This document shows positions 525-33,468 of a stretch of 33,628 bases of DNA, one piece after another. The stretch is from an uncultured Prevotellaceae bacterium (GTDB lineage: Bacteria; Bacteroidota; Bacteroidia; Bacteroidales; Bacteroidaceae): contig OMUV01000090.1 of the NCBI GenBank assembly GCA_900314335.1, forward strand, positions 1 through 33,628. Direction: 5' to 3'. Each line of letters begins with the position of its first letter. Within the stretch, counting starts at the first letter, position 1. Below the pieces are notes generated by a model that made no database searches, was not told the DNA's origin, and saw only the letters and a list, made by a program, of their open reading frames with translations. Both the position numbers and the translations under genes were made by a program.

Positions 525-1130
525 GTGAAAATTATCATTGTACACCCTCTTGAGGCCTGCAATAATGGCGGAGCCGATACGTTATGTAGTATAGAAGCAC
601 AAGGCGCACGCGTGGGCGCGCTCCCCGATACGGCGCTGCAGACGCGCGGTAAACCGGTGTTCATCCCCGACTGGGGAGGAGAGTGCGAAGCGCGCTGTGC
701 GCTGGCGGTGCGCATCAGCCGCCTCGGCAAGAGCATTGAGCGGCGCTTCGCCACACGCTACTTCGATGCCGTAGCGCCCGCCGTCAAGCTTGAGATGCAG
801 GACATGCTGGCCGATATGAAGCGCCGCGGAGCCGCCACGACGGCGGCCGAGGGCTTCGACGGGGCAGTGGCAGTGGGCGAGTTCGCACCCCTGGACGAAG
901 GAGGGCTTACGCTTACCTTTACCCTCGGGACAGAGAGGCGGGAAGTGAGCGCAGATGACGCCACGGCCGCCATAGCGGAATCCATAGAGGCCGCCTCGCA
1001 ATTTTTCTCCATACGTCAGGGCGATATCCTGCTTATGCCCTGCAGCGCTGAGGCTGTCAGGGTGGTCCCCGATACTCATGTCGAGGGCTTTGTCAATGGC
1101 AGACAGCTGCTCGGCTATAATATTAAATGA
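525..1130 (+). CDS. Fumarylacetoacetate hydrolase (FAH)-fold protein, probable pseudoenzyme
   Basis: Cytoplasmic protein of about 201 residues resembling the short FAH-family proteins (hydrolases or decarboxylases of the FAHD1 type) found beside porU in Bacteroidales. Family landmarks remain: GKPVFIPD, VRISRLGKSI, RFATRYFDAV, GFDGAVAVG and the C-terminal HVEGFVNG. The catalytic set does not. The metal-binding E-x-E is replaced by R57-C-A59, the metal Asp by K88, the active-site Lys before GFDG by E109, the TGTP loop by MPCS, and the N-terminal His dyad by Cys. The GTG start at 525 gives VKIIIVHP, which aligns with the usual MKII start; the upstream ATG at 474 would add 17 unrelated residues and lie before the -7 box. 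porU follows after 40 bp. The fold is fairly sure; loss of activity is inferred from residues recalled from the family. Confidence 0.75.
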   Translation: MKIIIVHPLEACNNGGADTLCSIEAQGARVGALPDTALQTRGKPVFIPDWGGECEARCALAVRISRLGKSIERRFATRYFDAVAPAVKLEMQDMLADMKRRGAATTAAEGFDGAVAVGEFAPLDEGGLTLTFTLGTERREVSADDATAAIAESIEAASQFFSIRQGDILLMPCSAEAVRVVPDTHVEGFVNGRQLLGYNIK

Positions 1131-1170: not shown

Positions 1171-4100
1171 ATGAAGCGCAACATAATATTTACCGTGTTC
1201 TTCGCCGCAGCGATGCTGCTGGGCTCCGCCGCCGTGTGGGGCGAGAGAGTGGACTCCGTGAGGGTGATAGGCGAGGGGAGCTTTTACAATATTCCCCGGC
1301 TCGCCATAGAGAGCGACGGGGCTCTGCCTCTGTTCTCCACGCGTATCCCCGTGGGGGCGGACTACGCCGGCTACCGGTTTGCCGTGACTATCGAGTATCC
1401 CGTCTACAGCCGCCTCACGGATCAGGAAGTACGCCTGTTGCGCCGTCACGGTACGACCGTGGCTGACACGATAGCCATCGAGAGCGTGCTGACGGTGGAG
1501 CGCAAGGTAGGATCGCTCGATGTGAGTTTCGCGCCCTTCGTCAGAAAGGACGGTGTGCTGATGCGCCTGACGAGCTGCAAACTGGCCGTGACGCGCACAC
1601 CCGTCTCCGGCGCTGTGGCCGCCTCGCGCGCTGCCGTGACGCAGGCCTCCTCGCGCGCCACAAAGGCCTCCTCTACTACGACCTCCTCGCGCTACGCCGC
1701 CCACTCCGTGCTCGCCTCGGGCAAGTGGGTCAAGATACGCGTGGATGCCGACGGCGTCTACCAGCTCACGAAGTCGTTCCTATCCAAGGCCGGTTTCTCT
1801 GATCCCTCGCGCGTGAAGCTGTACGGCTACGGCGGACTGATGCAGGACTCGGTCATCACCTACAGCGGCACAAAACCCGACTACGACGACCTGCAGGAGA
1901 TTCCCCTCGAACGCACGGGCGACAAGCTCCTCTTCTACTCAGAGGGTGTGACACGCTGGCGCTATGTGCGCAGCCGCTGGCGCCATGTCAACAATCCTTA
2001 CTCCTCCTACGCCTATTACTTCCTCACGGAGGGCGACAGTCCGGCCACCATGGAGACGGCGCCTACCGCTACCGCCACCGACGAGCCGCGCACCACCATT
2101 CCCTGGCATGCGCTCTACGAGCGCGATGCCTACAGCTGGTATACCGGCGGTCAGCAGTTTTTCGACTCCTACGACTTTGCCACGGGCAATACGAAGGCTT
2201 ACACGCTCGCAGCGCCCGACATCGTCTCCGGTGAGCAGGCCGCAGTGACCGTCGTGTTCTCCGCGTCCGACGCCTCGTCGGCCACCACGGTCGCCACGGA
2301 GCTCAACGGCTCGGAGCTTGGCACGATGACCATCCCGCTCCTAAACCGTAGCAATCTCGGCGAGCAGGGCTATAAGGCCCGCATGATGGAGCGCACATAC
2401 ACCACCGACAATCTCGGCGCCACCAACAGCGTGCGCTTCACCACGACCTCCGGCCACGCCGCCCGCCTCGACTATATCCGCTTCAACTATACCCGCCTGC
2501 TCAACATGTCCTCGCCGTTTCTCGAGATCACTGACCCCTCGCACAGCGGCGCAGGCACCTACTCCGTCGCCTCGGCTACGGCCGACACCAAGGTGTGGCG
2601 CCTGGGCATCGCAGGGCGTCCGCAGCAGAGCGTGAGCGCTGTTCTCTCTGGCTCCACGCTGACCTTTACGCTGCCCGACGTGACGGACTCTTACGTGGCG
2701 GTCAACACCTCCGCCACCTTCCCCGAACCGCAGCTTGTGGGCACCATCGCCTCGCAGGACCTGCACGGTGACAGCGCCGTCGACATGGTGATCATCGTGC
2801 CCGCAAGCGGAGCGCTCACCGCCGAGGCTCAGCGGCTCGCCGCGGCCCATGTGGCGCACGACTCCCTCAGGGTACGCGTCGTGGAGGCGGACAAGATATA
2901 CAATGAGTTCTCCTCCGGCACTCCCGACGCGATGGCCTACCGGCGCTACCTCAAGATGCTCTACGACCGCGCCGCTACCGAGGCCGACATGCCGCGCTTC
3001 CTGCTGCTCTTCGGCGACGCCGCTTGGGACAACCGCATGATAACTACCGACTGGCAGAACTACTCGCCCGATGACTTCCTCCTCTGCTACGAGTCGTGGA
3101 ACTCGATCAACGAGATCTCCTGCTATGTCACCGACGATTACTTCTGTTACCTCGACGACGGGGAAGGGCGCACCCTTACCTCCGAGAAGCCCGATGTCGC
3201 AGTGGGACGATTCCCCGTCAGGACGGCTGCCGAGGCCCGCGTCATGGTGGATAAGACCATCGGCTATATGTACAACGCTCACGTCGGGGCGTGGAAAAAC
3301 AAGATCATCGTCATGGGCGACGACGATGTCACTACCAATTCGCTCATGTCCGACGCCGAGAACATCGCCTCCGACATTGAGAAAAATCACAGCGGTTATG
3401 ATGTGAGGCGTGTCTATTGGGATTCGTACAATGTGGTGCGGACTTCCACCGGAAACACGTATCCAGACATCACCAAGGAGCTCAAGAGCTACATGACTAA
3501 CGGTGTCCTGCTGTTCAACTACACCGGCCACGGCGCCCCGTCCTCCATTTCCCACGAGAAGGTCCTCCTGCTCAACGATTTCAAGACTCTCAAGTCAGCC
3601 AATCCCTCTGTGTGGGTCACTTCCTCGTGCGAGATAACCCCGTTCGACTCTCAGGAGGAGACTATCGGCGAGGTCAGCGTGCTCAACGAGGGCGGCCCCG
3701 TCGCCTTCATCGGCGCCACGCGCTCGGTCTACTCTACGCGCAATCTCTACCTCAACACCTACCTGATGCGCAACATGCTGAGCGAGCAGAGCGACGGCCG
3801 CCTCATGCCCATGGGCTCTGCGCTGACAGCCGCCAAGTGCTCCCTCGTATCCTCGTCCTCGATGCTCGATTTCTCCATCAACAAGCTCAAGTATGTGCTC
3901 ACGGGTGACCCGGCTCTCAGCCTGGCCGGACCTACGGGACGGGTGGTGATAGACAGCATCAACGGCAAGTCGGCCCTGCTCTCGCGCATCGATCTGGCCG
4001 CAGGCTCTGTGGCCACCGTCGTGGGCCATGTAGCCTCGCCCTCGGGCGTCAGGCAGACGACCTACAACGGCACAGTGACCGCTACCATCTACGACAAACT

Positions 4101-5025
4101 GGAGACAGTGACCTGCAAGGACAATGCTGGCAACGGACAGACGCCCTTCACCTTCAGCACACGTACGCGCCGCCTCTTCGAGGGCTCCGACTCGGTGCGC
4201 GACGGCCGCTTCACCCTCCAGTTCCCCGTCTCGGTCGATGCAAGCTATTCCACAGCTACCTGTCTTATGAGCCTCTACGCCGTGAGCAACGACCGCTCAG
4301 CGGAGAACCACGGCGCCAACTCCAACTTCGCCATCAACACCTCCGCATCGCTCGCGGGAGACACCATCGGCCCGGCCATGTTCGTCTACCTCAACAATCC
4401 TGACTTCCGCGACGGCGACAAGACCAATACGACGCCCTACTTTGTGGCCCTCCTCTCCGACAGCAGCGGCATTAACGCTACCGGCAGCGGCGTGGGCCAC
4501 GACATAGAGCTCACTATCGACGGCGACCCCGCAACGTCCTATGTGCTCAACGATTATTTCACCAACGACTTCGGTACATTCACCAGCGGCAGCGTGAGCT
4601 ATTCGATACCGGAGCTCGCGCCCGGACCCCACCGCCTCTATTTCCGCGCCTGGGATATGCTGGGCAACTCCTCCTCCACGCTGCTCAACTTCACAGCCGT
4701 GCGCGGCCTCGCGCCCAACATCCTCGATGTGAGCTGCAATCCCAATCCCGCCACCACAACGGCCGTCTTCAACATCTCATACGACCGCCCGCTCACCGAC
4801 ATGACCTTCACCGTCAAGGTCTACGATTCCTACGGACAGCTCGTATGGCGCACCACGACCACCGGCAGCAGTGATTACGGCCACTATCCCGTGACGTGGA
4901 ACCTGACAAACGCCTCCGGAGCGCGTGTCGGCGGCGGTGTCTACCTCTATCGCGTCTCCGTGAGCGAGGACGGCGGCGGTGTGACGTCAAAAACCAAGAA
5001 ACTCATCGTGATAAACAATAAATAG
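1171..5025 (+). CDS. porU: Type IX secretion system sortase PorU (C25 peptidase)
   Basis: Cell-surface cysteine peptidase that cleaves the C-terminal signal of T9SS cargo and joins cargo to anionic LPS. It has 1284 residues, somewhat longer than P. gingivalis PorU. A signal peptide is clear (KR, then a hydrophobic stretch, ending near residue 24). The gingipain-type catalytic pair is visible: H787 in NYTGHGAP and C820 in VTSSCE, 33 residues apart as in the gingipains. Metal- and fold-associated acidic motifs (LLLFGDAAWD, VMGDDD) precede them. The C-terminal part is beta-rich and ends with a FlgD-like Ig/T9SS-type tail (NPNPATTTAVFNISY, GVYLYRVSV). It lies 40 bp after the FAH-fold gene and 45 bp before porV, so co-transcription is likely. 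Confidence 0.93.
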   Translation: MKRNIIFTVFFAAAMLLGSAAVWGERVDSVRVIGEGSFYNIPRLAIESDGALPLFSTRIPVGADYAGYRFAVTIEYPVYSRLTDQEVRLLRRHGTTVADTIAIESVLTVERKVGSLDVSFAPFVRKDGVLMRLTSCKLAVTRTPVSGAVAASRAAVTQASSRATKASSTTTSSRYAAHSVLASGKWVKIRVDADGVYQLTKSFLSKAGFSDPSRVKLYGYGGLMQDSVITYSGTKPDYDDLQEIPLERTGDKLLFYSEGVTRWRYVRSRWRHVNNPYSSYAYYFLTEGDSPATMETAPTATATDEPRTTIPWHALYERDAYSWYTGGQQFFDSYDFATGNTKAYTLAAPDIVSGEQAAVTVVFSASDASSATTVATELNGSELGTMTIPLLNRSNLGEQGYKARMMERTYTTDNLGATNSVRFTTTSGHAARLDYIRFNYTRLLNMSSPFLEITDPSHSGAGTYSVASATADTKVWRLGIAGRPQQSVSAVLSGSTLTFTLPDVTDSYVAVNTSATFPEPQLVGTIASQDLHGDSAVDMVIIVPASGALTAEAQRLAAAHVAHDSLRVRVVEADKIYNEFSSGTPDAMAYRRYLKMLYDRAATEADMPRFLLLFGDAAWDNRMITTDWQNYSPDDFLLCYESWNSINEISCYVTDDYFCYLDDGEGRTLTSEKPDVAVGRFPVRTAAEARVMVDKTIGYMYNAHVGAWKNKIIVMGDDDVTTNSLMSDAENIASDIEKNHSGYDVRRVYWDSYNVVRTSTGNTYPDITKELKSYMTNGVLLFNYTGHGAPSSISHEKVLLLNDFKTLKSANPSVWVTSSCEITPFDSQEETIGEVSVLNEGGPVAFIGATRSVYSTRNLYLNTYLMRNMLSEQSDGRLMPMGSALTAAKCSLVSSSSMLDFSINKLKYVLTGDPALSLAGPTGRVVIDSINGKSALLSRIDLAAGSVATVVGHVASPSGVRQTTYNGTVTATIYDKLETVTCKDNAGNGQTPFTFSTRTRRLFEGSDSVRDGRFTLQFPVSVDASYSTATCLMSLYAVSNDRSAENHGANSNFAINTSASLAGDTIGPAMFVYLNNPDFRDGDKTNTTPYFVALLSDSSGINATGSGVGHDIELTIDGDPATSYVLNDYFTNDFGTFTSGSVSYSIPELAPGPHRLYFRAWDMLGNSSSTLLNFTAVRGLAPNILDVSCNPNPATTTAVFNISYDRPLTDMTFTVKVYDSYGQLVWRTTTTGSSDYGHYPVTWNLTNASGARVGGGVYLYRVSVSEDGGGVTSKTKKLIVINNK

Positions 5026-5070: not shown

Positions 5071-6228
5071 ATGAGAATCAAGATAACAACTTTGCTGGCC
5101 CTGCTTCTCACCTTCTCCGTAGCAGCATGGGCAGACGGCGATAAAGACCAGTTCAACCCGGTCAGCACGGCAGTCAACTCCCTCAAGATCGGAGCCGACG
5201 CACGTGCCGGAGGTATGGGCGACGTCGGCGTTGCCACCGACCCGGATGTCAACTCGCAGGCCTGGAATGTGGCCAAATATCCATTCTGTATCAGCCGCGC
5301 CGGCCTGGCAGTCAACTATACCCCGTGGCTCCGCAAGATAGTCAACGACATCGACCTCGGCTATATGGCCGGATACATGAGGCTCGGCGACTATACAGCT
5401 CTGTCCTCCTCCCTGCGCTATTTCTCGCTCGGCGAGGTGGACGCAGGCGACAACCTCACCATCAAGCCCTATGAGCTCGCCTTCGACGTCGGCGTGTCGC
5501 GCATGCTGAGCGAAAACCTCTCGGCCGGTATAGCCCTCCGCTACATCTACTCCGACCTCAGCGGCCACTACTCCGATGACGTGAAGCCCGGCAACGCCTT
5601 TGCCGCCGATATCGGCCTCTATTGGAACAAGTATGTCATCATGGGCAGCCGCGAATGTCAGCTGGCTCTCGGTATGAATATCAGCAATGTGGGCAGTAAG
5701 GTGAAATACGGCGACGAAAACTCCTACTTCCTGCCCACGAACCTGCGCATAGGTGCCAGTTACCTCGTCCCCATCAACGAGTACAACAAATTCTCCATCT
5801 CCCTTGACCTCAACAAGCTCCTCGTGCCCACCATGCCGCGGCAGAAGGACGATGAGAGCGACGAGGCTTATCAGGAGCGCCTGCAGAAGGACTACTACGA
5901 CATGTCGCCCATCACCGGTATATTCAAGAGCTTCGGCGACGCCCCCGACGGATTTAGCGAGGAGCTCAAGGAGATACAGTGGAGCATAGGCGCAGAGTAC
6001 ATATATAATGACAAATTTATCCTGCGCGCCGGTTATCACGATGAGAACAAGGACAAGGGCAACCGCAAGTACTTCACCGTCGGTGCCGGATTCAGGATGA
6101 ATGTGTTCTCCCTCGATGCCGGCTATGTACTCAGCACGGCGGCAAGCAACCCTCTCGACCAGACGCTGCGTGTGTCCCTCGCCTTCGATTTCGACGGCAT
6201 ACGCGACCTCTTCAACAGGCGGCGCTGA
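5071..6228 (+). CDS. porV: Type IX secretion system outer membrane protein PorV
   Basis: Outer-membrane beta-barrel of the FadL-like PorV/LptO family. In the T9SS it collects cargo from the SprA translocon and delivers it to the PorU attachment complex. The protein has 385 residues with a signal peptide (MRIKITTLLALLLTFSVAAWA). The mature start carries the family signature ALKIGADARAGGMGDVGVAT-like segment (here SLKIGADARAGGMGDVGVAT), followed by alternating beta strands and a terminal strand ending LAFDFDGIRDLF. It follows porU at 45 bp and is closed by a strong terminator, so the T9SS pair ends here. I see no irregularities. Confidence 0.93.
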   Translation: MRIKITTLLALLLTFSVAAWADGDKDQFNPVSTAVNSLKIGADARAGGMGDVGVATDPDVNSQAWNVAKYPFCISRAGLAVNYTPWLRKIVNDIDLGYMAGYMRLGDYTALSSSLRYFSLGEVDAGDNLTIKPYELAFDVGVSRMLSENLSAGIALRYIYSDLSGHYSDDVKPGNAFAADIGLYWNKYVIMGSRECQLALGMNISNVGSKVKYGDENSYFLPTNLRIGASYLVPINEYNKFSISLDLNKLLVPTMPRQKDDESDEAYQERLQKDYYDMSPITGIFKSFGDAPDGFSEELKEIQWSIGAEYIYNDKFILRAGYHDENKDKGNRKYFTVGAGFRMNVFSLDAGYVLSTAASNPLDQTLRVSLAFDFDGIRDLFNRRR

Positions 6229-6301: not shown

Positions 6302-6802
6302 ATGCTATTGATTCCGCGTACAGGTTTGGGATTTGATGTCCACCGCCTCGTCGAGGGCCGCGAGCTCTGGCTGGGCGGAGTGAAGATAGATTACGAACGC
6401 GGCCTGCTGGGCCACAGCGATGCCGACGTGGCTCTCCACGCCCTTATCGATGCGCTGCTCGGCGCGGCAGCCCTCAGGGATATCGGTTACCACTTCCCCG
6501 ACACCGATGACCGCTATCTCGGCGCCGACAGCAAGGCTCTGCTGCGCGCCACGCTCGGGATATTGCGCTCTCACGGCTTCTCCGTAGGGAATGTAGACGT
6601 CACCATCTGCCTCGAGCGGCCCAAACTGCGGGACCACATCCCCGCCATGTGCTCCATCATCGCTTCCTGCCTTGAGATCCCCGTGAGCGACGTCTCGGTC
6701 AAGGCCACCACCACCGAGCGCCTCGGCTACACGGGCCGCGGCGAGGGCATCGCCGCCTACGCTACGGCTCTCATCTTCGAGCACCGCGACGAAGGAGAGT
6801 AG
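6302..6802 (+). CDS. ispF: 2-C-methyl-D-erythritol 2,4-cyclodiphosphate synthase
   Basis: Cytosolic trimeric enzyme of the non-mevalonate isoprenoid pathway. It cyclises 4-diphosphocytidyl-methylerythritol 2-phosphate to MEcPP with release of CMP. The protein has 166 residues, the usual size. The divalent-metal ligands are visible as D12 and H14 (FDVHR) and H46 (in GHSDADVALH). The family signature near the C-terminus is TTTERLGYTGRGEGIAA. The ATG at 6302 is chosen because the protein then starts just before the conserved RTGLGFDVHR; an in-frame upstream start at 6101 would run through porV and the terminator. Placement after porV matches the P. gingivalis order. With the terminator so close upstream, its promoter must lie inside or overlap that region, or read-through must serve it. 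Confidence 0.95.
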   Translation: MLLIPRTGLGFDVHRLVEGRELWLGGVKIDYERGLLGHSDADVALHALIDALLGAAALRDIGYHFPDTDDRYLGADSKALLRATLGILRSHGFSVGNVDVTICLERPKLRDHIPAMCSIIASCLEIPVSDVSVKATTTERLGYTGRGEGIAAYATALIFEHRDEGE

Positions 6803-7040: not shown

Positions 7041-7212
7041 ATAAAAGGCGGAAGTAATCATATCGAAATGAACATCTCAATCGCACATCTCCAAAATCGT
7101 TCCGCATGCGCGGAACCTCACAAGGCACCTGAGGAAAACTACATTTGAGATGTTTCAAAACGTCTCAAATGTAATTTTGCCCTTCCGCGAGCCTTGATTT
7201 TCAGATATTTAC
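7041..7212 (+). repeat. Interspersed hairpin repeat, copy 2
   Basis: This is the most complete copy. From the left: ATAAAAGG at 7041; a 7-bp hairpin GTTCCGC-atgc-GCGGAAC (7099-7116); CTCACAAGGCACCTGAG (7117-7133), which can form a CTC/GAG plus AGG/CCT stem; then the main stem TACATTTGAGATGTTT (7140-7155) against AAACGTCTCAAATGTA (7158-7173). That stem is 16 pairs with one T-G wobble (7151-7162). The right flank ends with TTGATTTTCAGATATTTAC. It lies in the gap between ispF and the ohrR terminator. Confidence 0.88.
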
Positions 7213-7340: not shown

Positions 7341-7484
7341 GCAAAAGGCACTCCCCAATCTCTCCAAAATCGTTCCGCATACGCTAGACCTCACAAGGCA
7401 CCTGAGGAAAACTACATTTGAGATGTTCCAAAACGTCTCAAATGTAATTTTTCCCTTCTGCGGTCTTGATTTTCAGTGATTTAC
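7341..7484 (+). repeat. Interspersed hairpin repeat, copy 3
   Basis: Same element as copy 2, about 270 bp downstream and in the same orientation, shortened by roughly 27 bp in its left part. CTCACAAGGCACCTGAGG is identical to copy 2. The 34-nt main inverted repeat is at 7413-7446 and has a TTT to TTC change near the loop. The first small hairpin has decayed (TTCCGC is no longer matched). The right flank TTGATTTTCAGTGATTTAC is retained. Confidence 0.87.
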
Positions 7485-11066: not shown

Positions 11067-11831
11067 TCATATCAGTCCTATTGTCGAGGCGTCTATCCAG
11101 CCTTTCTGGTCGCCGTCGAGAGATATCTGCCGCCATCCTTTCACGCTGTTGTCGCGGGTGAGTCTTATCTTGGCTCCCGGGAGTATATGCTGCAGCGCCT
11201 TGGCGTGGGGCGAGGGCGACTGGCGTATGTCTCCGGCCCTGAGCACTATGGCGTCGGTCGGCGCATCGCCGTTGACGGTCTGTACGATACTGCATGTGAG
11301 GGTCGTGACAAGCGCGATGAGCGCGATGATGCAGACGGCAAATGCGCCCTTTCTGAGGCTCAGCCTGCCTCCGAAGTAATAGACCAGGAAGCAGGCAAGC
11401 ATGAGGGCGAACGAGATGAGGGCGTAGAGAGTCCAGTCGGCGATGTTGCGGCTGTAGACAAAGTCGCGCGCCCACGAGGATATGAACGACTGCGGCTGCG
11501 CGCCGGAGAACTTGATCTTGGCCACGACTATCTTCAGATTGTAGCGGGCGTCGGAATAAGACGGGTCGAGGCGCAGCGCGCGCTCCCAGGCCAGACGGGC
11601 CTCGGGATATTCGCTCAGGCGGTAGTAACAGTTGCCGAGGTTGTAGTATATCTCGGAACTTTTCTCCGCTGCGGCTGCCTTGGTGTATTCTTCGACAGCG
11701 GCGCGGTATTCTCCCTTGCCGTACAGCATGGCTCCCTTTTCATAGGCCGCCTTTGCATCGGCGGCGAAGGCGCTCACGGAGCTCAGGATGAGTGCGGCGA
11801 ATATCAGTAGTGTTGTGATGACTTTTCTCAT
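11067..11831 (-). CDS. batE: BatE, TPR and SH3 domain membrane protein
   Basis: Last of the Bat (Bacteroides aerotolerance) proteins, 254 residues. A signal peptide (residues 1-23) is followed by TPR repeats (AYEKGAMLYGKGEYRAAVEEYTKA, in two parts from about 27 to 100). Two membrane segments lie around residues 130-195, and a C-terminal bacterial SH3 domain ends in GWIDASTIGLI. The start at 11831 gives an ATGA overlap of 4 bp with the batD stop; an upstream in-frame ATG at 11945 would lie deep inside batD and lacks a signal peptide. Bat proteins are thought to form an envelope complex with the VWA proteins BatA and BatB. The exact function is not established. Confidence 0.88.
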   Translation of the reverse strand: MRKVITTLLIFAALILSSVSAFAADAKAAYEKGAMLYGKGEYRAAVEEYTKAAAAEKSSEIYYNLGNCYYRLSEYPEARLAWERALRLDPSYSDARYNLKIVVAKIKFSGAQPQSFISSWARDFVYSRNIADWTLYALISFALMLACFLVYYFGGRLSLRKGAFAVCIIALIALVTTLTCSIVQTVNGDAPTDAIVLRAGDIRQSPSPHAKALQHILPGAKIRLTRDNSVKGWRQISLDGDQKGWIDASTIGLI

Positions 11832-13639
11832 GATTTTGCTTGGCTTAGTGAGTCCTCTATACGGATGATGGCATCGGAGGAGCGCTTGTAGAGGTTCTCC
11901 ATATTGGTCTTCGGATCGCCCGGAGCGTAGCGGGCAAACTCGCACTGCTTCATGACGTCTACCAGTTCCGCGGCCAGACTTTGCTCCACGCCGTGACGCT
12001 CGAGGGTTGTGGCCAGTTCGTCCGTGCGGAATTCGGACATCGGTATGGAGAGGCGTTGCGAGGCGTAGTTGAGCAGCGCTGAGGCCAGTTCATCATAGAA
12101 TGCCGCCGTGTCGCCGGCCTTGAGAAGGCGCGCGGCCTTGCGCAGGTGTTTCGCGGCAGTCTTGCCGGCCCTGCGGCTGAGCCTGAGAGAGGTGTTGCTG
12201 CGGTATTTCTCGGAGCGGCGCAACAGGGATAAGGCCACTATGAAAGCGATGAGGACGATGCCGTAGAGCATGTAGTAGACGGGCGAGCTCAGGCTGAAGA
12301 GCGTGGAGGGCTTGCTGTAGCTGCCATGCCAGATGTCATTGATGTCCTTGCGCAGCAGATCCTCGTCCTCGTTACTGATGCGCGAGCCCTGCTCCACGCG
12401 GAAACTGATCGGCTCTGTCGAGGTGGTCTTGTAGGTGTTCGTGCCGGTGTCGAAGTAGCAGAGCTTCAGGGAGGGCAGCGTGTAATTGCCCTTCTGGTGG
12501 GGCACCACGACGTAGTCGTAGTACATCGTGCCGCTCATGCCGGAGTCGGTGAGCTTGGTCTTGTCGGTGAGCTTGGCGGGGAACACGTCGAAGTCGTTGC
12601 CCATCTTCAGCTTCGGAGCGGTGATGAGCTTCATGTTGCCCACGCCGGTGATGACCACTCTCACGGACAGGTTTTCGCCAGTACGCGGCTTGGCGGTGAG
12701 GATGGACGACTTGATGTCAAAGTGTCCCACGGCGCCCGAGTATTCCATAGGCTTCGGCTCGGGGAGCTTGCTGACGTTGATGGAGAGAGAGGGGGCGATG
12801 ATCGATTTCTTGACCTCGGAGAAGTTCGGATTGCCGTTGAAGAACGCGTCAAACGGATCGATGTTCGGGTTGGCCACTGCTACCACGCCGTCGAAGCGGA
12901 TGGAGGGAATGGTGAGCTTGCCCGTCTGCTGCGGGTACATCACATACTGGCACCAGGTAGTGGTCTGGTAGGGCACGCCCTTGTACGAGCCCATGCTGAA
13001 CGACTTCTGCCTCGGCAGAGGCACCTCCTGCGTCAGGAATCCCTTGAGGTCCGGCATATTGCCCGCCAGCTGTGTGAGATTGACCCTCGTGTAGACTCGG
13101 TAGGTGAGCACCACCGGTTCCTGCTCGTGGACATTGGTCTTGTTGGCCGTGACGGTGATAAAAAGGTCGTTGGAGGTGATCCTGCCGCCGGTCTTCATGG
13201 GCATGGCATCATCGCTCTGGCTCTGCCGTGAAGATGAGCCCCTCGCGGCGTGGCCCGTGGCGGTGATGGTGATAGCCCCCGTGCGGTACGCCTTGCCTCC
13301 GATGGTGATGGTAGCGGTAGGCACGGTCACTGTGCCGGGCTTGTCGATGGTACAGGTGTAGGTGAATGTCACCGAACTGCTGCCGGAGGTCTTGCCGTTG
13401 ATGACCTGATAGCTGGACATCTCGGAGCGGCTCGGGCCGTAGACTACGTTGATGGCGGCGGGGAACCGCGGGCCGGAGAAGTCGTCGACGTCGCGCGTCG
13501 AGACATAATACTCAATGCGGAAGTTCTCGCCGCAGGTCACCTGACGCGGGGCGTTGGCCTTGATGCGCACGGCCGCCGTGGCGTAGGGCGTGAGCATCGT
13601 GAGGACGAGGGCGAGTATGATGGATAATCTCTTAGGCAT
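11828..13639 (-). CDS. batD: BatD, envelope protein of the aerotolerance cluster
   Basis: Protein of 603 residues with a signal peptide (MPKRLSIILALVLTMLTPYA), then several beta-sandwich modules (YYVSTRDVDDFSGPRFP, NDLFITVTANKTNVHEQEPV, GVGNMKLITAPKL). A membrane anchor near residues 455-475 (YMLYGIVLIAFIVALSLL) is followed by a basic, helical cytosolic tail with AARLLKAGDTAAFYDELASAL. This is the standard BatD layout (oxygen-tolerance protein family). It follows batC by 33 bp and overlaps batE by 4 bp, so it is translated as part of the operon. A role in an envelope complex with BatA, B, C and E is inferred from other Bacteroidetes and from Leptospira. Confidence 0.9.
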   Translation of the reverse strand: MPKRLSIILALVLTMLTPYATAAVRIKANAPRQVTCGENFRIEYYVSTRDVDDFSGPRFPAAINVVYGPSRSEMSSYQVINGKTSGSSSVTFTYTCTIDKPGTVTVPTATITIGGKAYRTGAITITATGHAARGSSSRQSQSDDAMPMKTGGRITSNDLFITVTANKTNVHEQEPVVLTYRVYTRVNLTQLAGNMPDLKGFLTQEVPLPRQKSFSMGSYKGVPYQTTTWCQYVMYPQQTGKLTIPSIRFDGVVAVANPNIDPFDAFFNGNPNFSEVKKSIIAPSLSINVSKLPEPKPMEYSGAVGHFDIKSSILTAKPRTGENLSVRVVITGVGNMKLITAPKLKMGNDFDVFPAKLTDKTKLTDSGMSGTMYYDYVVVPHQKGNYTLPSLKLCYFDTGTNTYKTTSTEPISFRVEQGSRISNEDEDLLRKDINDIWHGSYSKPSTLFSLSSPVYYMLYGIVLIAFIVALSLLRRSEKYRSNTSLRLSRRAGKTAAKHLRKAARLLKAGDTAAFYDELASALLNYASQRLSIPMSEFRTDELATTLERHGVEQSLAAELVDVMKQCEFARYAPGDPKTNMENLYKRSSDAIIRIEDSLSQAKS

Positions 13640-13672
13640 AGTGATGTGTGCAGGACAGAGGGAGAAGAAAAG

Positions 13673-14368
13673 TTACCAGTTTTGCTCGAGACTTCTGGGA
13701 CTGCTGTAGCGCTGTCCGCGGCGCAGCTTGTCCTGTGTGCGCTGCTCTTCCTGCTGTGCGGCATCGAGCAGACGCTGGGCGTTCTCGCGCGACATCTGGT
13801 TGTTGCTTTGCTGCTGCTTCTGTTGTTGCTGCTGGTCTTTCTGCTTGTCCTGTTTATTCTGTTGGTTTTTATTGTTCTTGTTCTGCTGATTTTTGTTGTT
13901 CTTATTCTGCTGCTTGTTCTGCTTCTGATTCTTCTGCATGTGGCGGCAGAGGGCGAGATTGTAGCGGCTCTCGTCGTCTTTGGGATTATTGCGAAGCGCG
14001 TTCTCGTAGCTCTTTATCGCGTCGCCATACTGCTTCTGGCTCTGCAGGATTACACCCATGTTGTGATAAGCCTTGGCCAGATAGCGGGGATTGTGCGTGT
14101 GTTTGATGGCGGCCTCGTACTGTGCGGCGGCGTCTTTGGGATTGCGCTGCCGGAGCAGGGCGTTGCCGAGGTTGAAGTGCGCTATCGGGTCGGCCTCGTT
14201 GCGCTTCACGGCCTTGCGGTAGGCGGTCTCGGCGTCGTTGAACAGGCTGTCGATATAGAGGGAGTTGCCCTTGCGTATCAGGCGCCTGTTGTCCCGCTGC
14301 GCCATCGCGGACGTCTGGGAGAGCAGCAGGATTAGTGTGGTGAGAATATATATGTAGCGTGTCTTCAT
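13673..14368 (-). CDS. batC: BatC, TPR protein with Asn/Gln/Lys-rich tail
   Basis: Secreted or periplasmic TPR protein of 231 residues. A signal peptide (about residues 1-23, ending SAMAQ) is followed by three to four TPR units from about residue 27 to 140 (for example DPIAHFNLGNALLRQ, LAKAYHNMGVILQSQKQYGDAIKSYENAL). A low-complexity tail of about 55 residues rich in N, Q and K contains the 8-residue unit NKNNKNQQ twice in tandem. The end (SRENAQRLLDAAQQEEQ) is helical and conserved in BatC. The ATG overlaps the batB stop by 4 bp. It probably serves as a docking subunit of the Bat complex. Confidence 0.88.
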   Translation of the reverse strand: MKTRYIYILTTLILLLSQTSAMAQRDNRRLIRKGNSLYIDSLFNDAETAYRKAVKRNEADPIAHFNLGNALLRQRNPKDAAAQYEAAIKHTHNPRYLAKAYHNMGVILQSQKQYGDAIKSYENALRNNPKDDESRYNLALCRHMQKNQKQNKQQNKNNKNQQNKNNKNQQNKQDKQKDQQQQQKQQQSNNQMSRENAQRLLDAAQQEEQRTQDKLRRGQRYSSPRSLEQNW

Positions 14369-15396
14369 CTTCGTTTCTTAAAGAGGTTGAGGCGGCGAAG
14401 CACATGGTTCTTGCGCTCCATGATGATGGCATCGGCTATGAGCGCGATGAGAGCCAGCAGAGCTACCCACTGAAACTGCTCGTCGTAGGATGAGTATACG
14501 ACCGAGGACATGTCGCTCTTCTTGATCTTGTCGAGCTGGGCGAACAGCTGCTCGCGCGCCGAAGGGGCGTTGGAGAGGTAGATAAACGCGCCGCTTCCGG
14601 CCTTGGCTATGCTGCGGCACATGTCCTTGTTGAGATGAGAGATGACGGTCTGCCCGCTCCGGTTGGTGATATACTTTCCGCGGTTGGCGGGGTCCGGAAC
14701 GGGAGCACCGCTGCTGCCGCCCACGCCGATGACGAACGTGCGGATGCCTTGCTTTGCAGCGTCGCGGGCAGCCTTCTCTGCGCCGCCCTCGTGGTCCTCG
14801 CCGTCGGTAATCACGATGATGGCGCGGCCTATGCCGTCCTTCTTTGAGAAGCATTTCGTGGACAGATTGATGGCTTCGGCGATGGCAGTGCCCTGCTTGG
14901 TGATCATGGTCGGGTTGATGGCGTCGAGAAACATGGATGCCGAGATGCCGTCGCTCGTCATGGGCATCTGGTTGTACGCCTCGCCTGCGAACACCACGAG
15001 CGCCACCTTGTCATTGTCCATGCGGTCGATGAGCGAGGTGATGAGCTGCTTGGCGCAGTCCAGACGGTTGGGCGCTACGTCCTCGGCCATCATCGAATTG
15101 GAGATGTCGAGCGCGATGACGGCCTCGATACCTTGCTTCTTCTCGTTGTCCACCGTCAGGCCCATCTGAGGCCGCGCGAGGGCCAGGATAAGCATTGTGG
15201 CGGCGAAGAGTCCCAGGCCGAACTTCAGGTGCTGCCGCTTGAGCGAGGCGTCGGGCATGAGAGCCTTGAGCAGGTTCGGGTCGCCGAAGCGCTTCAGGCG
15301 TCTCTTCCTCGCTATGCACGACAAGACGTAGATGGCCGCCCATACTATGATGAGCAGCAGGAGATATAAATATTGCGGGTCTTGAAATCTTAGCAT
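14365..15396 (-). CDS. batB: BatB, VWA-domain membrane protein
   Basis: Inner-membrane protein of 343 residues. Two N-terminal membrane segments (residues 8-27 and 58-75) are followed by a von Willebrand A domain with an intact MIDAS metal site, D97-I-S99-N-S101. The VWA fold continues through IIVITDGEDHEGGAEKAARDA, and a C-terminal membrane helix lies near residue 310-327 (WVALLALIALIADAIIM). It follows batA by 12 bp and overlaps batC by 4 bp. With BatA it presumably forms the VWA pair that a MoxR ATPase acts on. That partnership is known for MoxR-VWA systems in general and inferred here. Confidence 0.92.
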   Translation of the reverse strand: MLRFQDPQYLYLLLLIIVWAAIYVLSCIARKRRLKRFGDPNLLKALMPDASLKRQHLKFGLGLFAATMLILALARPQMGLTVDNEKKQGIEAVIALDISNSMMAEDVAPNRLDCAKQLITSLIDRMDNDKVALVVFAGEAYNQMPMTSDGISASMFLDAINPTMITKQGTAIAEAINLSTKCFSKKDGIGRAIIVITDGEDHEGGAEKAARDAAKQGIRTFVIGVGGSSGAPVPDPANRGKYITNRSGQTVISHLNKDMCRSIAKAGSGAFIYLSNAPSAREQLFAQLDKIKKSDMSSVVYSSYDEQFQWVALLALIALIADAIIMERKNHVLRRLNLFKKRR

Positions 15397-15408
15397 ATGC
15401 TCGATAGT

Positions 15409-16413
15409 TTATGGCAGCCTGCGATATACCGTGGCTCTGAGAAGCAGCTCCAGAAGCATTGTGATGACCGCCAGCATGGCCAGAGGCTGATAGAGGTCGT
15501 AGCGCTTGGAGTATTTGCGCACATTATACTTGGTGCGCTCCAGTTTGTCGATGTCCTGATACACCTTCTTGAGCTGCGAGGTGGATGTGGCCCTGTAAAA
15601 CTCGCCGCCCGTGGCCGTAGCGATGCCGTCGAGCGTCTTGGTGTCGATCTCGCAGGGCATCTGGATATAGTGGACGCCTCCGCCGGGCAGAGGGTAGGGG
15701 AACGGCGCCGTGCCGTTGGTGCCCACGCCGATGGTGTATATACGTATGCCGAAGGTGGCGGCTATGTCGGCTGCGGTAAGGGGTGAAATCTCGCCTCTGT
15801 TGTTGGAACCGTCGGTAAGGAGAATGATGACTTTGCTCTTGGCCTTGCTCTCCCTCAGACGCGAGATGGCATTTGTCAGTCCCATGCCTATTGCCGTGCC
15901 GTCGTCGATAAGCCCGTGCATGGCGTAGTCGCAGCTCACATTGCGCAGCAGACTGAGCAGCGAGGCGTGGTCCGTAGTCATGGGGCACTGCGTGAAGGCC
16001 TCGGCCGCAAAGACCGTGAGCCCGATATTGTCGTTGGGGCGCGAATTGATAAACTCGGTCGCCACATTCTTGGCCGCCTCAATACGGTTGGGCTGTAGGT
16101 CTTCGGCCAGCATACTCGTAGAGGCGTCTATCGCCAGCATGATGTCTATGCCTTCCACCTGCGCGTCCTTCCACGCGTTCTTGCCCTGCGGCCTGGCCAG
16201 TATCAGAATGATGAGCGTCAGCGTGATGAGGCGCAGGAAGAACGGCGTGTGCATCAGCCTCATCTTGAGCGACGGACTGATGCCGCGATATGCGTTGGTG
16301 TCAGAGAAAGTGATGCCGGCCTCGCGGCGGTGATGGCGCATGAAGTGCCACACTGCGTAGGGCAGCAGCAGCAACAGCAGAAAAAGTATCTCCTTGTTTG
16401 CGAATGTGATCAT
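15409..16413 (-). CDS. batA: BatA, VWA-domain membrane protein
   Basis: Paralogue of BatB with 334 residues and the same architecture. N-terminal hydrophobic segments lie near 8-21 and 57-73. A VWA domain follows with MIDAS residues D96-A-S98-T-S100 and TDGSNNRGE later in the fold, and a C-terminal membrane helix is around 308-325. The sequence LARPQ just before the VWA domain is shared with BatB. Spacings are 12 bp on both sides, which suggests translational coupling. Bat mutants of Bacteroides fragilis were reported to be oxygen-sensitive; the biochemical role remains unsettled. Confidence 0.92.
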   Translation of the reverse strand: MITFANKEILFLLLLLLPYAVWHFMRHHRREAGITFSDTNAYRGISPSLKMRLMHTPFFLRLITLTLIILILARPQGKNAWKDAQVEGIDIMLAIDASTSMLAEDLQPNRIEAAKNVATEFINSRPNDNIGLTVFAAEAFTQCPMTTDHASLLSLLRNVSCDYAMHGLIDDGTAIGMGLTNAISRLRESKAKSKVIILLTDGSNNRGEISPLTAADIAATFGIRIYTIGVGTNGTAPFPYPLPGGGVHYIQMPCEIDTKTLDGIATATGGEFYRATSTSQLKKVYQDIDKLERTKYNVRKYSKRYDLYQPLAMLAVITMLLELLLRATVYRRLP

Positions 16414-16425
16414 TTATCAAATGCT

Positions 16426-17562
16426 CTATAGCAACAGTTCGTGTATCTCGTATACCACGACTGCCAGAATTAAGACTGTGACGACGAGCGAGAGGGCGAA
16501 GACTATCTTGCGCCGGCGGCGCACGTCGCTGACCTTCTCCCCGGTGTCCTCGGGGATGTCCTCCTCGGTTATCACAGGCGGTTTGTCGCTCTTGGTGGTC
16601 TCTATATAGTCGGAGAGGCGCCTCAGGTTGCGTTCGTCCTCTCCCTGATCGGTCTGCAGCTTGGCAAACTTGGTGAGGTCGGCCGTGGCGAGTATCTCGC
16701 GCAGCTCCGTATAGTCCGGTTCCACGCGTGCCACAGTAACGCCCTGTTCTCCTTCAGAGGTTGCGGGCTGTTCTTCCTTCTCGCCCAGTTCTATGAGCCG
16801 CGCTACCAGTTCGTAGGAAGTCATCTCATCGGCCTTGAATCCGTAGCGCTTGCTTACATAGCGCCTCAGGATACCGATGAGGCTGGTGTAGTAGTCCTTG
16901 GACGTGAGTTCCTCGCGCCCGTAGTTGTCCTTGAGCTGCTCTATTGCGGCTTCGGCCTCCTTGTGCGGCGGCACTACGGCCTTGACCTCCTTTTTGGTCT
17001 GTTTCTTTCTGCCGGCCATCTGCATCCACAGGTAGGCTGCGGCGCTGCCTGCGCAGCAGACGATGAGCAGCACAGCGAGCAGGAAAAGCCTCATCCAATC
17101 GCGCCAGGTGTAGGCGGGGTCGGTGATTTCCTTCGGACCGTAGTATTTGTCCGTGTGTACGGTGTCCACCTTTATGTCATTGACCTTGAGGGCCAGTTGC
17201 GGAGTGGGGTAAGTCTGCTTGCCGACCTTGACATTGATAGAAGGAATATAGTAGAGCGCCGGCTCGAAGCTCGTGAGCGTATAGACACATTTTGTGGTGG
17301 TCATCCCGTCGGACGGTGTGCCCGGCTCGGAGCTCACCTGTCCCTTGCCGATGACCTCCAGTCCCGCCTTGAGCAGCGGCTGCAGGTCCTGCGGGAAGAC
17401 GGGCGTTGTGGCGGCGGGGTGCACTACGGTGACCCTCAGGGCCGTCTGCTCGCCCAGAAGTATCGCCGTGCTGTCCGTCATGGCCTTGACGGAGACCTGC
17501 GCCCTCACGGCCGTGAGCGGCAGGAGCAGTGCTATTATATATATGAATGCTTTCCTTGTCAT
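16426..17562 (-). CDS. Bat-cluster membrane protein with N-terminal beta domain
   Basis: I recognise this as the gene usually found between the DUF58 gene and batA in Bacteroidetes but know no accepted name. It has 378 residues. A signal peptide (ending about residue 21, VRAQ) is followed by a periplasmic beta-rich region similar in style to BatD modules (SVKAMTDSTAILLGEQTALRVTV). A membrane segment lies around 158-181, and a cytosolic helical part from about 185 to 345 contains ELTSKDYYTSLIGILRRYVSKRYG, a motif typical of the BatD C-terminal tail. A second membrane helix closes the protein (353-377). The gaps are 15 bp to the DUF58 gene and 12 bp to batA. It probably helps anchor the VWA complex. 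Confidence 0.75.
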   Translation of the reverse strand: MTRKAFIYIIALLLPLTAVRAQVSVKAMTDSTAILLGEQTALRVTVVHPAATTPVFPQDLQPLLKAGLEVIGKGQVSSEPGTPSDGMTTTKCVYTLTSFEPALYYIPSINVKVGKQTYPTPQLALKVNDIKVDTVHTDKYYGPKEITDPAYTWRDWMRLFLLAVLLIVCCAGSAAAYLWMQMAGRKKQTKKEVKAVVPPHKEAEAAIEQLKDNYGREELTSKDYYTSLIGILRRYVSKRYGFKADEMTSYELVARLIELGEKEEQPATSEGEQGVTVARVEPDYTELREILATADLTKFAKLQTDQGEDERNLRRLSDYIETTKSDKPPVITEEDIPEDTGEKVSDVRRRRKIVFALSLVVTVLILAVVVYEIHELLL

Positions 17563-19846: not shown

Positions 19847-19977
19847 GTAACTATTTGAAAATCAGTGTCTGCAAAAGGCCAAAACTACATTTGAGACGTT
19901 TTGAAACATCTCAAATGTAATTTCACTCAAGTGCCTTGTGAGTAACAACACATGCGGAAGGGTTTTTATGTGATGTG
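19847..19977 (-). repeat. Interspersed hairpin repeat, copy 4 (inverted orientation)
   Basis: This copy is in the opposite orientation to the other four. The 34-nt main inverted repeat is at 19886-19919 and, read on the minus strand, is identical to that of copy 2. On this strand the single imperfect pair is a T-G wobble; on the plus strand it is a C-A mismatch. The minus-strand left flank reads CACATCACATAAAAACCC before TTCCGC, closest to copy 1. The first small hairpin is not preserved. CTCACAAGGCACTTGAG is kept, as is the distal CTGATTTTCAAATAGTTAC. Confidence 0.87.
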
Positions 19978-29162: not shown

Positions 29163-29335
29163 CATAAGGGATGAATATTTCGCTTCGCCGGAACACCATT
29201 TGCACGCTCCGCAAAAAAACGTTCCGCATACAGGAATACTCACAAGGCACCTGAGAGAAATTACATTTGAGATGTTTTAAAACGTCTCAAATGTAATTTT
29301 TGCCCTCTTATGGGTACTGATTTCCAAGATATTGC
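29163..29335 (+). repeat. Interspersed hairpin repeat, copy 5
   Basis: This copy begins with ATAAGGG, equivalent in position to ATAAAAGG of copies 1 and 2. GTTCCGCATACAGGAA (29221-29236) is a partly decayed first hairpin. CTCACAAGGCACCTGAG is intact. The 34-nt main inverted repeat is at 29262-29295 and has TTTTAAAA at its centre, which gives the best loop pairing of all copies. The distal flank ACTGATTTCCAAGATATT has drifted slightly. Confidence 0.87.
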
Positions 29336-30803: not shown

Positions 30804-32372
30804 ATGAACAAGAATTTACTTCACACATTCAGCTTAAGATCTCTGCCGCTCATTATGGCAGCGATAGCTATGATTGTCACCACTACGGTGTCCGCCCAAA
30901 CCAAGGTGAAGATAGATGATTTCTATTACATCCTTGACGATGCCAGTCTCACGGCCGAACTTGCGGCTTCGGAGGACACCGGCACCTACGCTACGGGCCG
31001 TGTCACCGTCCCCTCATCTGTTACCAGCGATGATAAGACTTATGAGGTGACCAAAATAGGCGATTTCGCCTTCTCCTTCAATACTGGCATAACTTCCGTG
31101 GTCATCCCGCTCTCGCTGCAGGAGATAGGCGACGGCGCCTTTCAGGGCTGCACGAAGCTGAGCTCTGTGACTTTCCGCATGACCAAGCTTCTCTCGATAG
31201 GCGATGCCGCATTTGAGGGCTGCTCCTCGCTGGGAAGCATCACAATCCCCGCCACTACCAAAAAGATTGGTGCCTGGGCATTTGCTGAGACAGCGTTGCG
31301 GAGCGTGGTGATTCCTGACTCGGTCACCTCATTGGGCGGCAATGCGTTTCAGGGCTGCACCAGTCTGACGGGCGTTACGTTCAAGTGCAGGCTCAAGGCC
31401 ATTCCCAATAGTCTGTTCAGCCGTTGCACATCTCTCTCCAATGTATTGATGACCACAGACAGGCGCAATAATATCGACGAGATAGGCAATGCAGCCTTCT
31501 TCAGCTGCTCCAAGATGACCACTTACAATTTCGGCGACTCCGTGAGCAGTATTGGCGCATGCAGTTTCATGTCCTGCACATCGCTGGGCAAGGCAGACAT
31601 CCCTTCTTCCGTGACATATATCGGCCACGACGCCTTTGCAGCCTGCACGGCAATGTCTGCCGTGACGCTTCCTGATAACATCGACTCCGTGAGCGACCGC
31701 ATATTCAAGGACGCTCATGCCCTCAAGACCATCACGATGAGCGACTCGGTGAAATATCTCGGCGAGCAGGCCTTTGCCTACTGCACATCGCTTAAGTCGG
31801 CCCACCTCTCATCCCAGATTACCGAGATTCCCTTCAAGGCCTTCGCTTACTGCGCAAAGCTTTCCGACATTAACCTCCCCGCTTCTGTCACAGTGATCGG
31901 CGACTCGGCCTTCAGCAACACGCAGGCCTTCGACTCGCTCACCATCGGTCGCAATGTCACGAGCATCGGCGACTATGCCTTTGCCAATATCCCCACGCTT
32001 AAGTATGTCTACATGCCCTCGACGCTCCCGTCTAAGACTGCTGACGGTCTGGGCGACTACATATTCAGCGGCGACAGCATAGAGGCCCTTTATGCCGAGT
32101 GGGAGAAAGGACCTACAGTTTCTTCCGGTTTCTTCACCTACTGCGATACGCTTTATGTGCCTCAGGGCGACCTGCTCTATTATTACCGCAGGACAGGCTG
32201 GAAGGATGCCAAGGTCAAGAGGATGTATGATGCTGTAGCAGTCGGCATAGACGATGCTGTGGTGGACAAGAAGGACAATGACGCCTACTACAATCTCGAA
32301 GGTATCCGCGTGCTCAATCCCCGGAAGGGCGAGATATACATCCATCGCGGCAGGAAAGTGCTATATCGTTAA
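30804..32372 (+). CDS. Secreted BspA-like leucine-rich-repeat protein
   Basis: Exported protein of 522 residues with a signal peptide (hydrophobic stretch from about residue 14, ending VSAQ near 31). From about residue 85 to 430 it consists of roughly a dozen repeats of about 23 residues of the LRR_5/BspA kind, with the pattern IGDGAFQGCTKLSSVTF and IPDSVTSLGGNAFQGCTSL. Many repeats carry a conserved Cys. The C-terminal segment (YYNLEGIRVLNPRKGEIYIHRGRKVLYR, key part GIRVLNPRKGEIYIHRG) is the short tail common on secreted Bacteroidales proteins. BspA proteins bind host or bacterial surfaces; the ligand here is unknown. GH43 genes follow 55 bp downstream. Confidence 0.9.
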   Translation: MNKNLLHTFSLRSLPLIMAAIAMIVTTTVSAQTKVKIDDFYYILDDASLTAELAASEDTGTYATGRVTVPSSVTSDDKTYEVTKIGDFAFSFNTGITSVVIPLSLQEIGDGAFQGCTKLSSVTFRMTKLLSIGDAAFEGCSSLGSITIPATTKKIGAWAFAETALRSVVIPDSVTSLGGNAFQGCTSLTGVTFKCRLKAIPNSLFSRCTSLSNVLMTTDRRNNIDEIGNAAFFSCSKMTTYNFGDSVSSIGACSFMSCTSLGKADIPSSVTYIGHDAFAACTAMSAVTLPDNIDSVSDRIFKDAHALKTITMSDSVKYLGEQAFAYCTSLKSAHLSSQITEIPFKAFAYCAKLSDINLPASVTVIGDSAFSNTQAFDSLTIGRNVTSIGDYAFANIPTLKYVYMPSTLPSKTADGLGDYIFSGDSIEALYAEWEKGPTVSSGFFTYCDTLYVPQGDLLYYYRRTGWKDAKVKRMYDAVAVGIDDAVVDKKDNDAYYNLEGIRVLNPRKGEIYIHRGRKVLYR

Positions 32373-32427: not shown

Positions 32428-33468
32428 ATGTACAGGAAGATTTATATATTATTCATTTCGCTCTTTGTCTTTGCTGCCGCTCAGGCCGACAACTCAATCA
32501 AGCGACTCGTCTTCTCCAACCCGATAATCCCTACGTCGGTGCCCGATCCCTGCATCATCAAGGCCGGCGACGGATATTTCTACCTCTACGGCACAGAGGA
32601 TCATCACAATGTGCCTATCTACCGCTCCCGTAACCTTGTCGACTGGCTCTTCATCGGCACGGCGTTCACCAACGCTACCCGCCCGCGCACAGTGAGCCCC
32701 TATGTCAAGTACACCTACAGCGACGGCTCTACCAAGAGCCCTATGATCTGGGCGCCGGACATTGCGCACATCGGCGACAAGTATGTGCTCTATTACGCCA
32801 TCGGCGTGTGGGGCGACCTTCAGAAGAGCGGCATCGGTGTGGCCTGGGCCGACAGTCCCGAGGGGCCGTTCATAGACGGCGGAGCCCTTTTCCTGAGCGA
32901 AGATATCGGTGTCTCCAACTCTATCGACGCCCAGTATGTCTCGGACGGCGGGAAGAACTATCTCGTGTGGGGCTCCTTCAAGGGCATCTATATTATCCAG
33001 CTCACCGACGATGGTCTGCATCTCATGCCCGGCGCTGCGAAGCAGCAGATAGCCGGTACGCTGACCGAGGGCTCGTATATTTATAAGCGTGGCGGCTACT
33101 ATTATCTCTTCGGCTCGGCAGGCTCCTGCTGCTCGGGCGCAAACAGTACGTACCATGTGGTAGTGGGGCGCGCCACAAGTCTTCTCGGTCCTTACCTCGA
33201 TAAGAGCGGCAACAAAATGCTCAATAATAAGGCCGAACTGGTGGTGAGCGGCGATGATTTTGTGGCCGGTCCGGGCCACAACGCCGAGATCGTGGAGGAC
33301 GACAAGGGACAGACATGGATGCCCATGCACGGCTATCCCAAGGCCGATGCCGGCAAGGGACGCTGTGTCTATCTCGTACAGATAAAATGGAAGGACAACT
33401 GGCCCTATGTAGAGGGCGGTGTTCTGCCTCAGACAGCTGAGGCTCCTTATTTCAAAAATTCAAAATAA
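32428..33468 (+). CDS. Glycoside hydrolase family 43, arabinanase-like, secreted
   Basis: Five-bladed beta-propeller glycosidase of 346 residues, with a signal peptide (about residues 1-20, ending AAAQA). The three acidic active-site residues of the family are visible: base D40 (SVPDPCII), pKa-modulating D167 (NSIDAQY) and acid E214 (LTEGSYIY). The motif GSAGSCCSGANSTY is also typical of the arabinan-acting subgroup. Activity on alpha-1,5-arabinan or related side chains is likely but the substrate is not proven. A second GH43 gene starts 5 bp after its stop codon. Confidence 0.9.
   Translation: MYRKIYILFISLFVFAAAQADNSIKRLVFSNPIIPTSVPDPCIIKAGDGYFYLYGTEDHHNVPIYRSRNLVDWLFIGTAFTNATRPRTVSPYVKYTYSDGSTKSPMIWAPDIAHIGDKYVLYYAIGVWGDLQKSGIGVAWADSPEGPFIDGGALFLSEDIGVSNSIDAQYVSDGGKNYLVWGSFKGIYIIQLTDDGLHLMPGAAKQQIAGTLTEGSYIYKRGGYYYLFGSAGSCCSGANSTYHVVVGRATSLLGPYLDKSGNKMLNNKAELVVSGDDFVAGPGHNAEIVEDDKGQTWMPMHGYPKADAGKGRCVYLVQIKWKDNWPYVEGGVLPQTAEAPYFKNSK

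Follow-up and report, generated by a model that had tools for sequence, protein, structure and literature searches.

The locus described here raises the question of why a bacterium should keep an open gene for an enzyme fold whose functional residues have disappeared. The gene encodes a protein of the FAH family and lies directly before porU in the window, that is, the whole stretch of 33,628 nucleotides that was analysed. FAHD proteins have been called universal metabolite-repair enzymes (PMC10825186). The preliminary description of this DNA proposed that the gene encodes a retained pseudoenzyme and is not in decay, perhaps with a role related to surface export. We examined the gene, its orthologues and their surroundings.

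Fold and former active site of the encoded protein

The features of the locus are listed in Table 1. The FAH reading frame is uninterrupted from 525 to 1127, with the stop codon at 1128-1130, and porU follows after a gap of 40 bp, so that the open frame and the place before porU are as had been described. The identity of porU was obtained from a profile search of the window (NF033707, E 3e-297).

Table 1. Positions of the FAH gene, its altered sites and retained segments, and the genes downstream
Feature	Position	Strand	Remarks
FAH-fold pseudoenzyme gene, 201 aa, GTG start	525..1130	+	sole FAH-family gene found in genome
Cys12, at or at most 1 residue from lid His (YcgM H29)	558..560	+	alignment, locally uncertain
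Segment A, residues 34-50 (PDTALQTRGKPVFIPDW)	624..674	+	entropy 1.09 degenerate vs 0.96 canonical
R57-C58-A59, in place of metal E-x-E (YcgM E70-x-E72)	693..701	+	alignments
Segment B, residues 63-84 (RISRLGKSIERRFATRYFDAVA)	711..776	+	entropy 1.12 degenerate vs 0.80 canonical
K88, in place of metal Asp (YcgM D101)	786..788	+	alignments
E109, in place of catalytic Lys (YcgM K122)	849..851	+	alignments
M171-P-C-S174, in place of TGTP loop (YcgM T190-G-T-P193)	1035..1046	+	alignments
C-terminal strand, residues 195-201 (LLGYNIK; family FN[IV]K)	1107..1127	+	entropy 1.40 degenerate vs 1.31 canonical
porU (T9SS sortase), next gene after FAH	1171..5025	+	profile search
porV (T9SS outer-membrane protein)	5071..6228	+	profile search
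ispF; directly after FAH in T9SS-less relatives	6305..6802	+	

The FAH fold was found to be kept, as had been claimed. The protein scored 35.6 bits against PF01557, of which the cut-off is 23.9, and its AlphaFold model was confident (pLDDT 93.2, pTM 0.90). In the fold comparison, the closest structure to the model was FAHD1 (6sbj_C; Z 23.1, rmsd 2.1 over 187 residues).

Residues were matched to those of E. coli YcgM and human FAHD1 by alignment with HMMER and MAFFT, and the YcgM numbering is used here; the catalytic Lys of FAHD1 is K123 (PMC12176266). The exchanges reported earlier for the metal E-x-E, the metal Asp, the catalytic Lys and the TGTP loop were all seen in these alignments. The change of the N-terminal His to Cys is approximate: C12 lies within one residue of the position of H29, and the lid aligns loosely, so that the exact match is unsure. 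The lid columns of the window protein hold a gap beside C12, and G15, in the family-wide alignments, and a smaller alignment shifts the columns. The lid Glu is also lost, and the NYxxHxxE motif is plainly missing from the sequence. The general FAH residues D93, D112, S158 and G166-D167 are kept. An alignment artefact as the cause of the residue loss was rejected, because HMMER, MAFFT and the fold comparison concur.

The window protein is like the oxaloacetate tautomerases YcgM, FAHD1 and OAT1 (PMC10825186) in fold, length, residue spacing and the positions of the former site, and its canonical Bacteroidales neighbours have all ten residues of these enzymes. It differs from them in having no metal ligands, catalytic Lys, TGTP loop or lid His-Glu, and its score against the YcgM equivalog, 40.4 bits, is far below the cut-off of 201. 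Judged by the alignments and the predicted structure, the window protein is a FAH protein that has lost its catalytic residues within a folded domain.

Recurrence of the loss among orthologues

Of 151 same-family genomes, 147 have a FAH homologue. We counted the core residues (E, E, D, K) in 139 orthologues from this family: 30 keep 0-2 of them, and the others keep all four. The distribution was bimodal in the first 99 genes (70 with four, 29 with 0-2, none between), and the next 40 added one further degenerate case, L152. In the wider set, 44 of 233 distinct genes are degenerate, that is, they keep two core residues or fewer. Among 40 loci from other families of the order, L348, L358, L364, L380 and L383 are strongly degenerate (0-2 of four) and L351 is partially so; L131, also outside the family, is another degenerate copy with two of the four. 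The degenerate copies from other families keep a recognisable R[LT]GKxI/V...[FY]A...Y segment. Degenerate and canonical copies occur even within one genus, as in G321 and G231 of the wider order.

The pattern at the catalytic positions is far beyond chance: every FAH gene of the set has either kept all or nearly all of the ten positions, or degenerated in the same way throughout. Catalytic loss at this locus is a recurrent state in the order and not a one-off. In gut and mouth bacteria, all active-site residues of this small housekeeping enzyme have apparently been lost many separate times. The label "FAH family hydrolase" would mislead for about one fifth of the copies in the family of the window genome.

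A second PF01557 gene was found in none of the degenerate genomes, and the model in which the degenerate protein partners an active paralogue was rejected for this reason.

A scan of named genomes linked one degenerate genus to Alloprevotella (for example L268, from Alloprevotella sp. OH1205_COT-284). In Alloprevotella-type copies, the His or Cys at former metal ligands might be a changed metal site. The L152 copy (genome G135) is only partly degenerate, with K-A-D-K and a GGV loop, in the otherwise canonical genus g6; the PorU beside it gave a profile match in two pieces in one frame. As a recent case, L152 is useful for studying the transition from the canonical to the degenerate state.

Number and origin of the losses

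A tree of RpoB from 53 genomes requires a minimum of six changes to account for the degenerate state. The losses fall in a clade of the window genome, g16 and g13, in a pair inside the otherwise canonical g25, and in g8, g12, g4 and g19. A single clade of all degenerate genomes was rejected on this tree (AU p 1.6e-57). We infer that the direction of change is loss, because the outgroups and YcgM are canonical.

The FAH gene tree gave a different picture. With the catalytic columns removed, the degenerate copies were grouped, two changes were enough, and a single clade was not rejected (AU p 0.8), so this tree by itself does not prove independent losses. The grouping is what would be expected if one degenerate gene had arisen once and been transferred to other lineages in place of the active copy, or if an old pair of paralogues had been sorted differently, whatever the function. 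However, long-branch attraction is also expected in this tree. Its branch lengths were about 0.4-1.7 changes per column for degenerate copies versus about 0.1-0.5 for canonical ones. Moreover, for 19 non-canonical copies a canonical protein is nearer than every other degenerate one. For example, L088 is nearest to its sister genus (L062, L044), and L309, L249 and L252 are nearest to Prevotella-type copies. A rare Trp at position 80 is common to the degenerate pair of g25 and the canonical g25 copies. Because of these 19 copies, L088 and the Trp80 of g25, we take the grouping mostly as long-branch attraction. The conserved genome position, and the absence of any genome with two copies, also speak against a single origin. 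We therefore regard a single origin as unlikely, and think that some part of the degenerate state may have spread by transfer.

Segments retained in the degenerate proteins

We compared the entropy of each part of the protein between the canonical and the degenerate sets. The catalytic segments gained about 1.6-1.9 bits in the degenerate set, that is, from 0.84 to 2.42 bits in residues 54-62, from 0.29 to 2.14 in 85-93, and from 0.89 to 2.76 in 171-184, and they drift freely. The entropies of segment A, segment B and the C-terminal strand are given in Table 1. G68, R78 and Y79 are invariant across the degenerate set, and R63, R66, L67, G68, R74, F75, R78, D81 and D49 persist in 85-100% of its members.

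Most of the kept residues of segment B differ in YcgM and FAHD1, although A76 and Y79 are present in FAHD1. Since R63, R66, R74, F75, R78, D81 and D49 are other residues in those enzymes, they are not demanded by the FAH fold. The Bacteroidota-type patterns of the kept segments, KPFFIPDF and RxxRLGKxIxxRFAxRYYDA, are absent from YcgM and FAHD1, and canonical copies from other orders of the class already have them in part (GKxIxxKFAxxYY, PF[FY]xP[DE]F). On the simplest reading of these sequences, the Bacteroidota protein has an older second function, which outlives the loss of the enzyme. The kept segments may also partly reflect folding or dimer stability.

The main functional rival of this reading is a remodelled metal site, in which other ligands have been built into the pocket and serve a different reaction. 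The degenerate proteins remain folded, and His or Cys often stands in place of the lost E72 and D101 in the Alloprevotella-type branch, as in a softer metal site. The combinations found were E-H-H (L017, L058), H-H-H (L241), S/T-H-H (L244, L242) and Q-C-H (L065, L073). In the window protein, nearby acids (E53, E55, E90, D93, E109) might in principle provide a new metal site. Against such a rebuilding, no replacement is common to the degenerate lineages and the catalytic columns are free. In addition, few parts of the degenerate proteins vary as much as the TGTP and lid segments, and in the window protein the three ligand positions are occupied by R, A and K and not by a His/Cys triad. We consider a remodelled enzyme to be quite unlikely.

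Selection on degenerate copies

In close degenerate pairs, dN/dS was 0.08-0.30 by NG86 and 0.12-0.17 by YN00, near the canonical median of 0.145. In residues 34-84 of five close degenerate pairs, dN was 0.00-0.07 and dS was 0.10-1.24, giving dN/dS of about 0.05-0.08. Because dS is not lowered in this region, the selection acts at the protein level, and a nucleotide-level constraint such as a hidden RNA or promoter was rejected. Purifying selection was measured in these degenerate relatives; for the window gene itself, of which we found no relative above about 42% identity in the collections searched, the evidence is the open frame and the conserved segments.

These data bear on the possibility that the enzyme has become dispensable and its gene is slowly eroding, being preserved for some time by operon translation or by fold stability alone. 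The long branches of the degenerate copies and the drift of their catalytic segments would fit such a decay. However, all degenerate ORFs found, from several genera, are intact, and in a simple simulation such an ORF, evolving neutrally, remained open in about 12% of cases at 0.15 substitutions per site and about 3% at 0.3. Moreover, dN/dS is near the value of the active copies. The homologue search favours intact copies, but with matches in 147 of 151 genomes and an internal stop in none of the same-family matches listed, there is scant room for unseen pseudogenes. Slow decay is, in our judgement, rather improbable.

The earlier claim of a retained pseudoenzyme that is not decaying is thus well supported by the intact ORFs and low dN/dS of the relatives, and further by the conservation on non-catalytic segments and by the lack of a second FAH gene.

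Genomic context and the proposed link to export

The genes are commonly arranged as rex - FAH - porU - porV - ispF, in which rex was named from its sequence and from PF06971 matches beside FAH. In genomes lacking the T9SS, ispF comes immediately after FAH. A same-strand porU is directly downstream in 38 of 44 degenerate loci, and this arrangement, together with the short gap in the window, might suggest that the pseudoenzyme serves the T9SS or surface export. Canonical copies, however, hold the same place (134 of 189 loci), and many T9SS-less genomes also have canonical copies; that is, the degenerate or canonical state of FAH is independent of the presence of the T9SS. No PorU was found in G003 (99% complete) or G016 (77% complete), which both keep a degenerate FAH followed by ispF. 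Nor was porU found in the stretch read at most degenerate copies outside the family, as at L383, where rex lies upstream of the degenerate FAH.

We therefore rejected FAH as a T9SS component, as its degenerate copies in G003 and G016 do not co-occur with PorU. The role in surface export suggested earlier was not supported by these genomes, nor by the position of the gene beside rex and ispF, and we regard it as very improbable. The secretion link of FAH looks incidental.

Two other candidate links were also rejected. Rex (PF06971) was not found in the window genome, g16, g13, g25 and many canonical genomes, some of these genomes being incomplete. A loss or function tied to Rex was excluded, because Rex is absent and present in genomes of both kinds. 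A loss tied to that of SDH/fumarate reductase was excluded because the degenerate genomes tested do have the flavoprotein gene.

A candidate second function

We lean, with somewhat better than even confidence, towards a retained pseudoenzyme that serves for docking or as a scaffold, the Bacteroidales protein having two jobs of which the enzyme job was dropped in many lineages. The protein would have originated from a FAHD/YcgM-type enol-keto (oxaloacetate) tautomerase, and its descendant is presumably a cytosolic FAH-fold protein. Most likely, the Bacteroidales protein combines the enzyme reaction with a docking or scaffold role independent of catalysis. The parts responsible for this role would be residues 34-50, 63-84 and the C-terminal strand, with their many conserved basic and aromatic residues; the kept segments would form one binding face, and the partner may be a conserved protein or RNA. 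In many lineages, including that of the window genome, the enzyme job would have been dropped, leaving selection on the docking role alone. The window protein would then no longer bind metal or run tautomerase chemistry. The stronger proposal, that residues 34-50, 63-84 and the C-terminus serve an undescribed non-catalytic function that is needed more strictly than the reaction and became the sole function at least six times, is a tentative one, to which we give a little less than an even chance.

YisK of Bacillus subtilis, an active enzyme of the FAH family, is cited in PMC10825186 for a role in envelope remodelling, and the title of a work cited there refers to its Mbl-dependent localisation. 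The YisK structure (8suu) has the FAH fold in common with our model (Z 20.4). By analogy, its role in cell shape besides metabolism may be taken as a precedent for a second job of a FAH protein.

No FAH pseudoenzyme was found among the papers searched. As in pseudoenzymes generally, catalytic residues have been lost while the fold and the gene are under selection. What sets the FAH case apart is that the loss has occurred repeatedly within a single order, at a conserved locus, and that the non-catalytic segments retained are the same each time. That is, a major bacterial order keeps a FAHD protein and repeatedly discards its reaction, which amounts to a natural experiment. It also offers a handle on the second function, because the surviving segments are mapped and active and dead orthologues exist in related species.

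Other features of the window

Phage relatives were looked for, and none was found. A match to TAnnTTTG, the Bacteroidota -7 promoter word, lies at 499-506, upstream of the FAH gene. The window has 25 such matches versus 8 expected, and many are part of a dispersed intergenic repeat of about 100 nt. The repeat occurs at 46-147, 7088-7189, 7361-7462, 19848-19932 and 29210-29311, one copy lying about 380 bp upstream of the FAH gene. It has an inverted-repeat core, ACATTTGAG...CTCAAATGT, and carries TAnnTTTG words. At least 40 copies or fragments were found genome-wide, most with 83-100% identity, and the repeat looks like a REP/MITE-type element.

A Bat-type cluster at 11828-17559 (- strand) consists of two BatD-like proteins and one BatA/VWA protein. 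At 30804-32369 and 32428-33465, a BspA-type leucine-rich repeat protein (PF13306, E 5e-137) adjoins a GH43 glycosidase, and the gene of the former contains internal 34-nt repeats.
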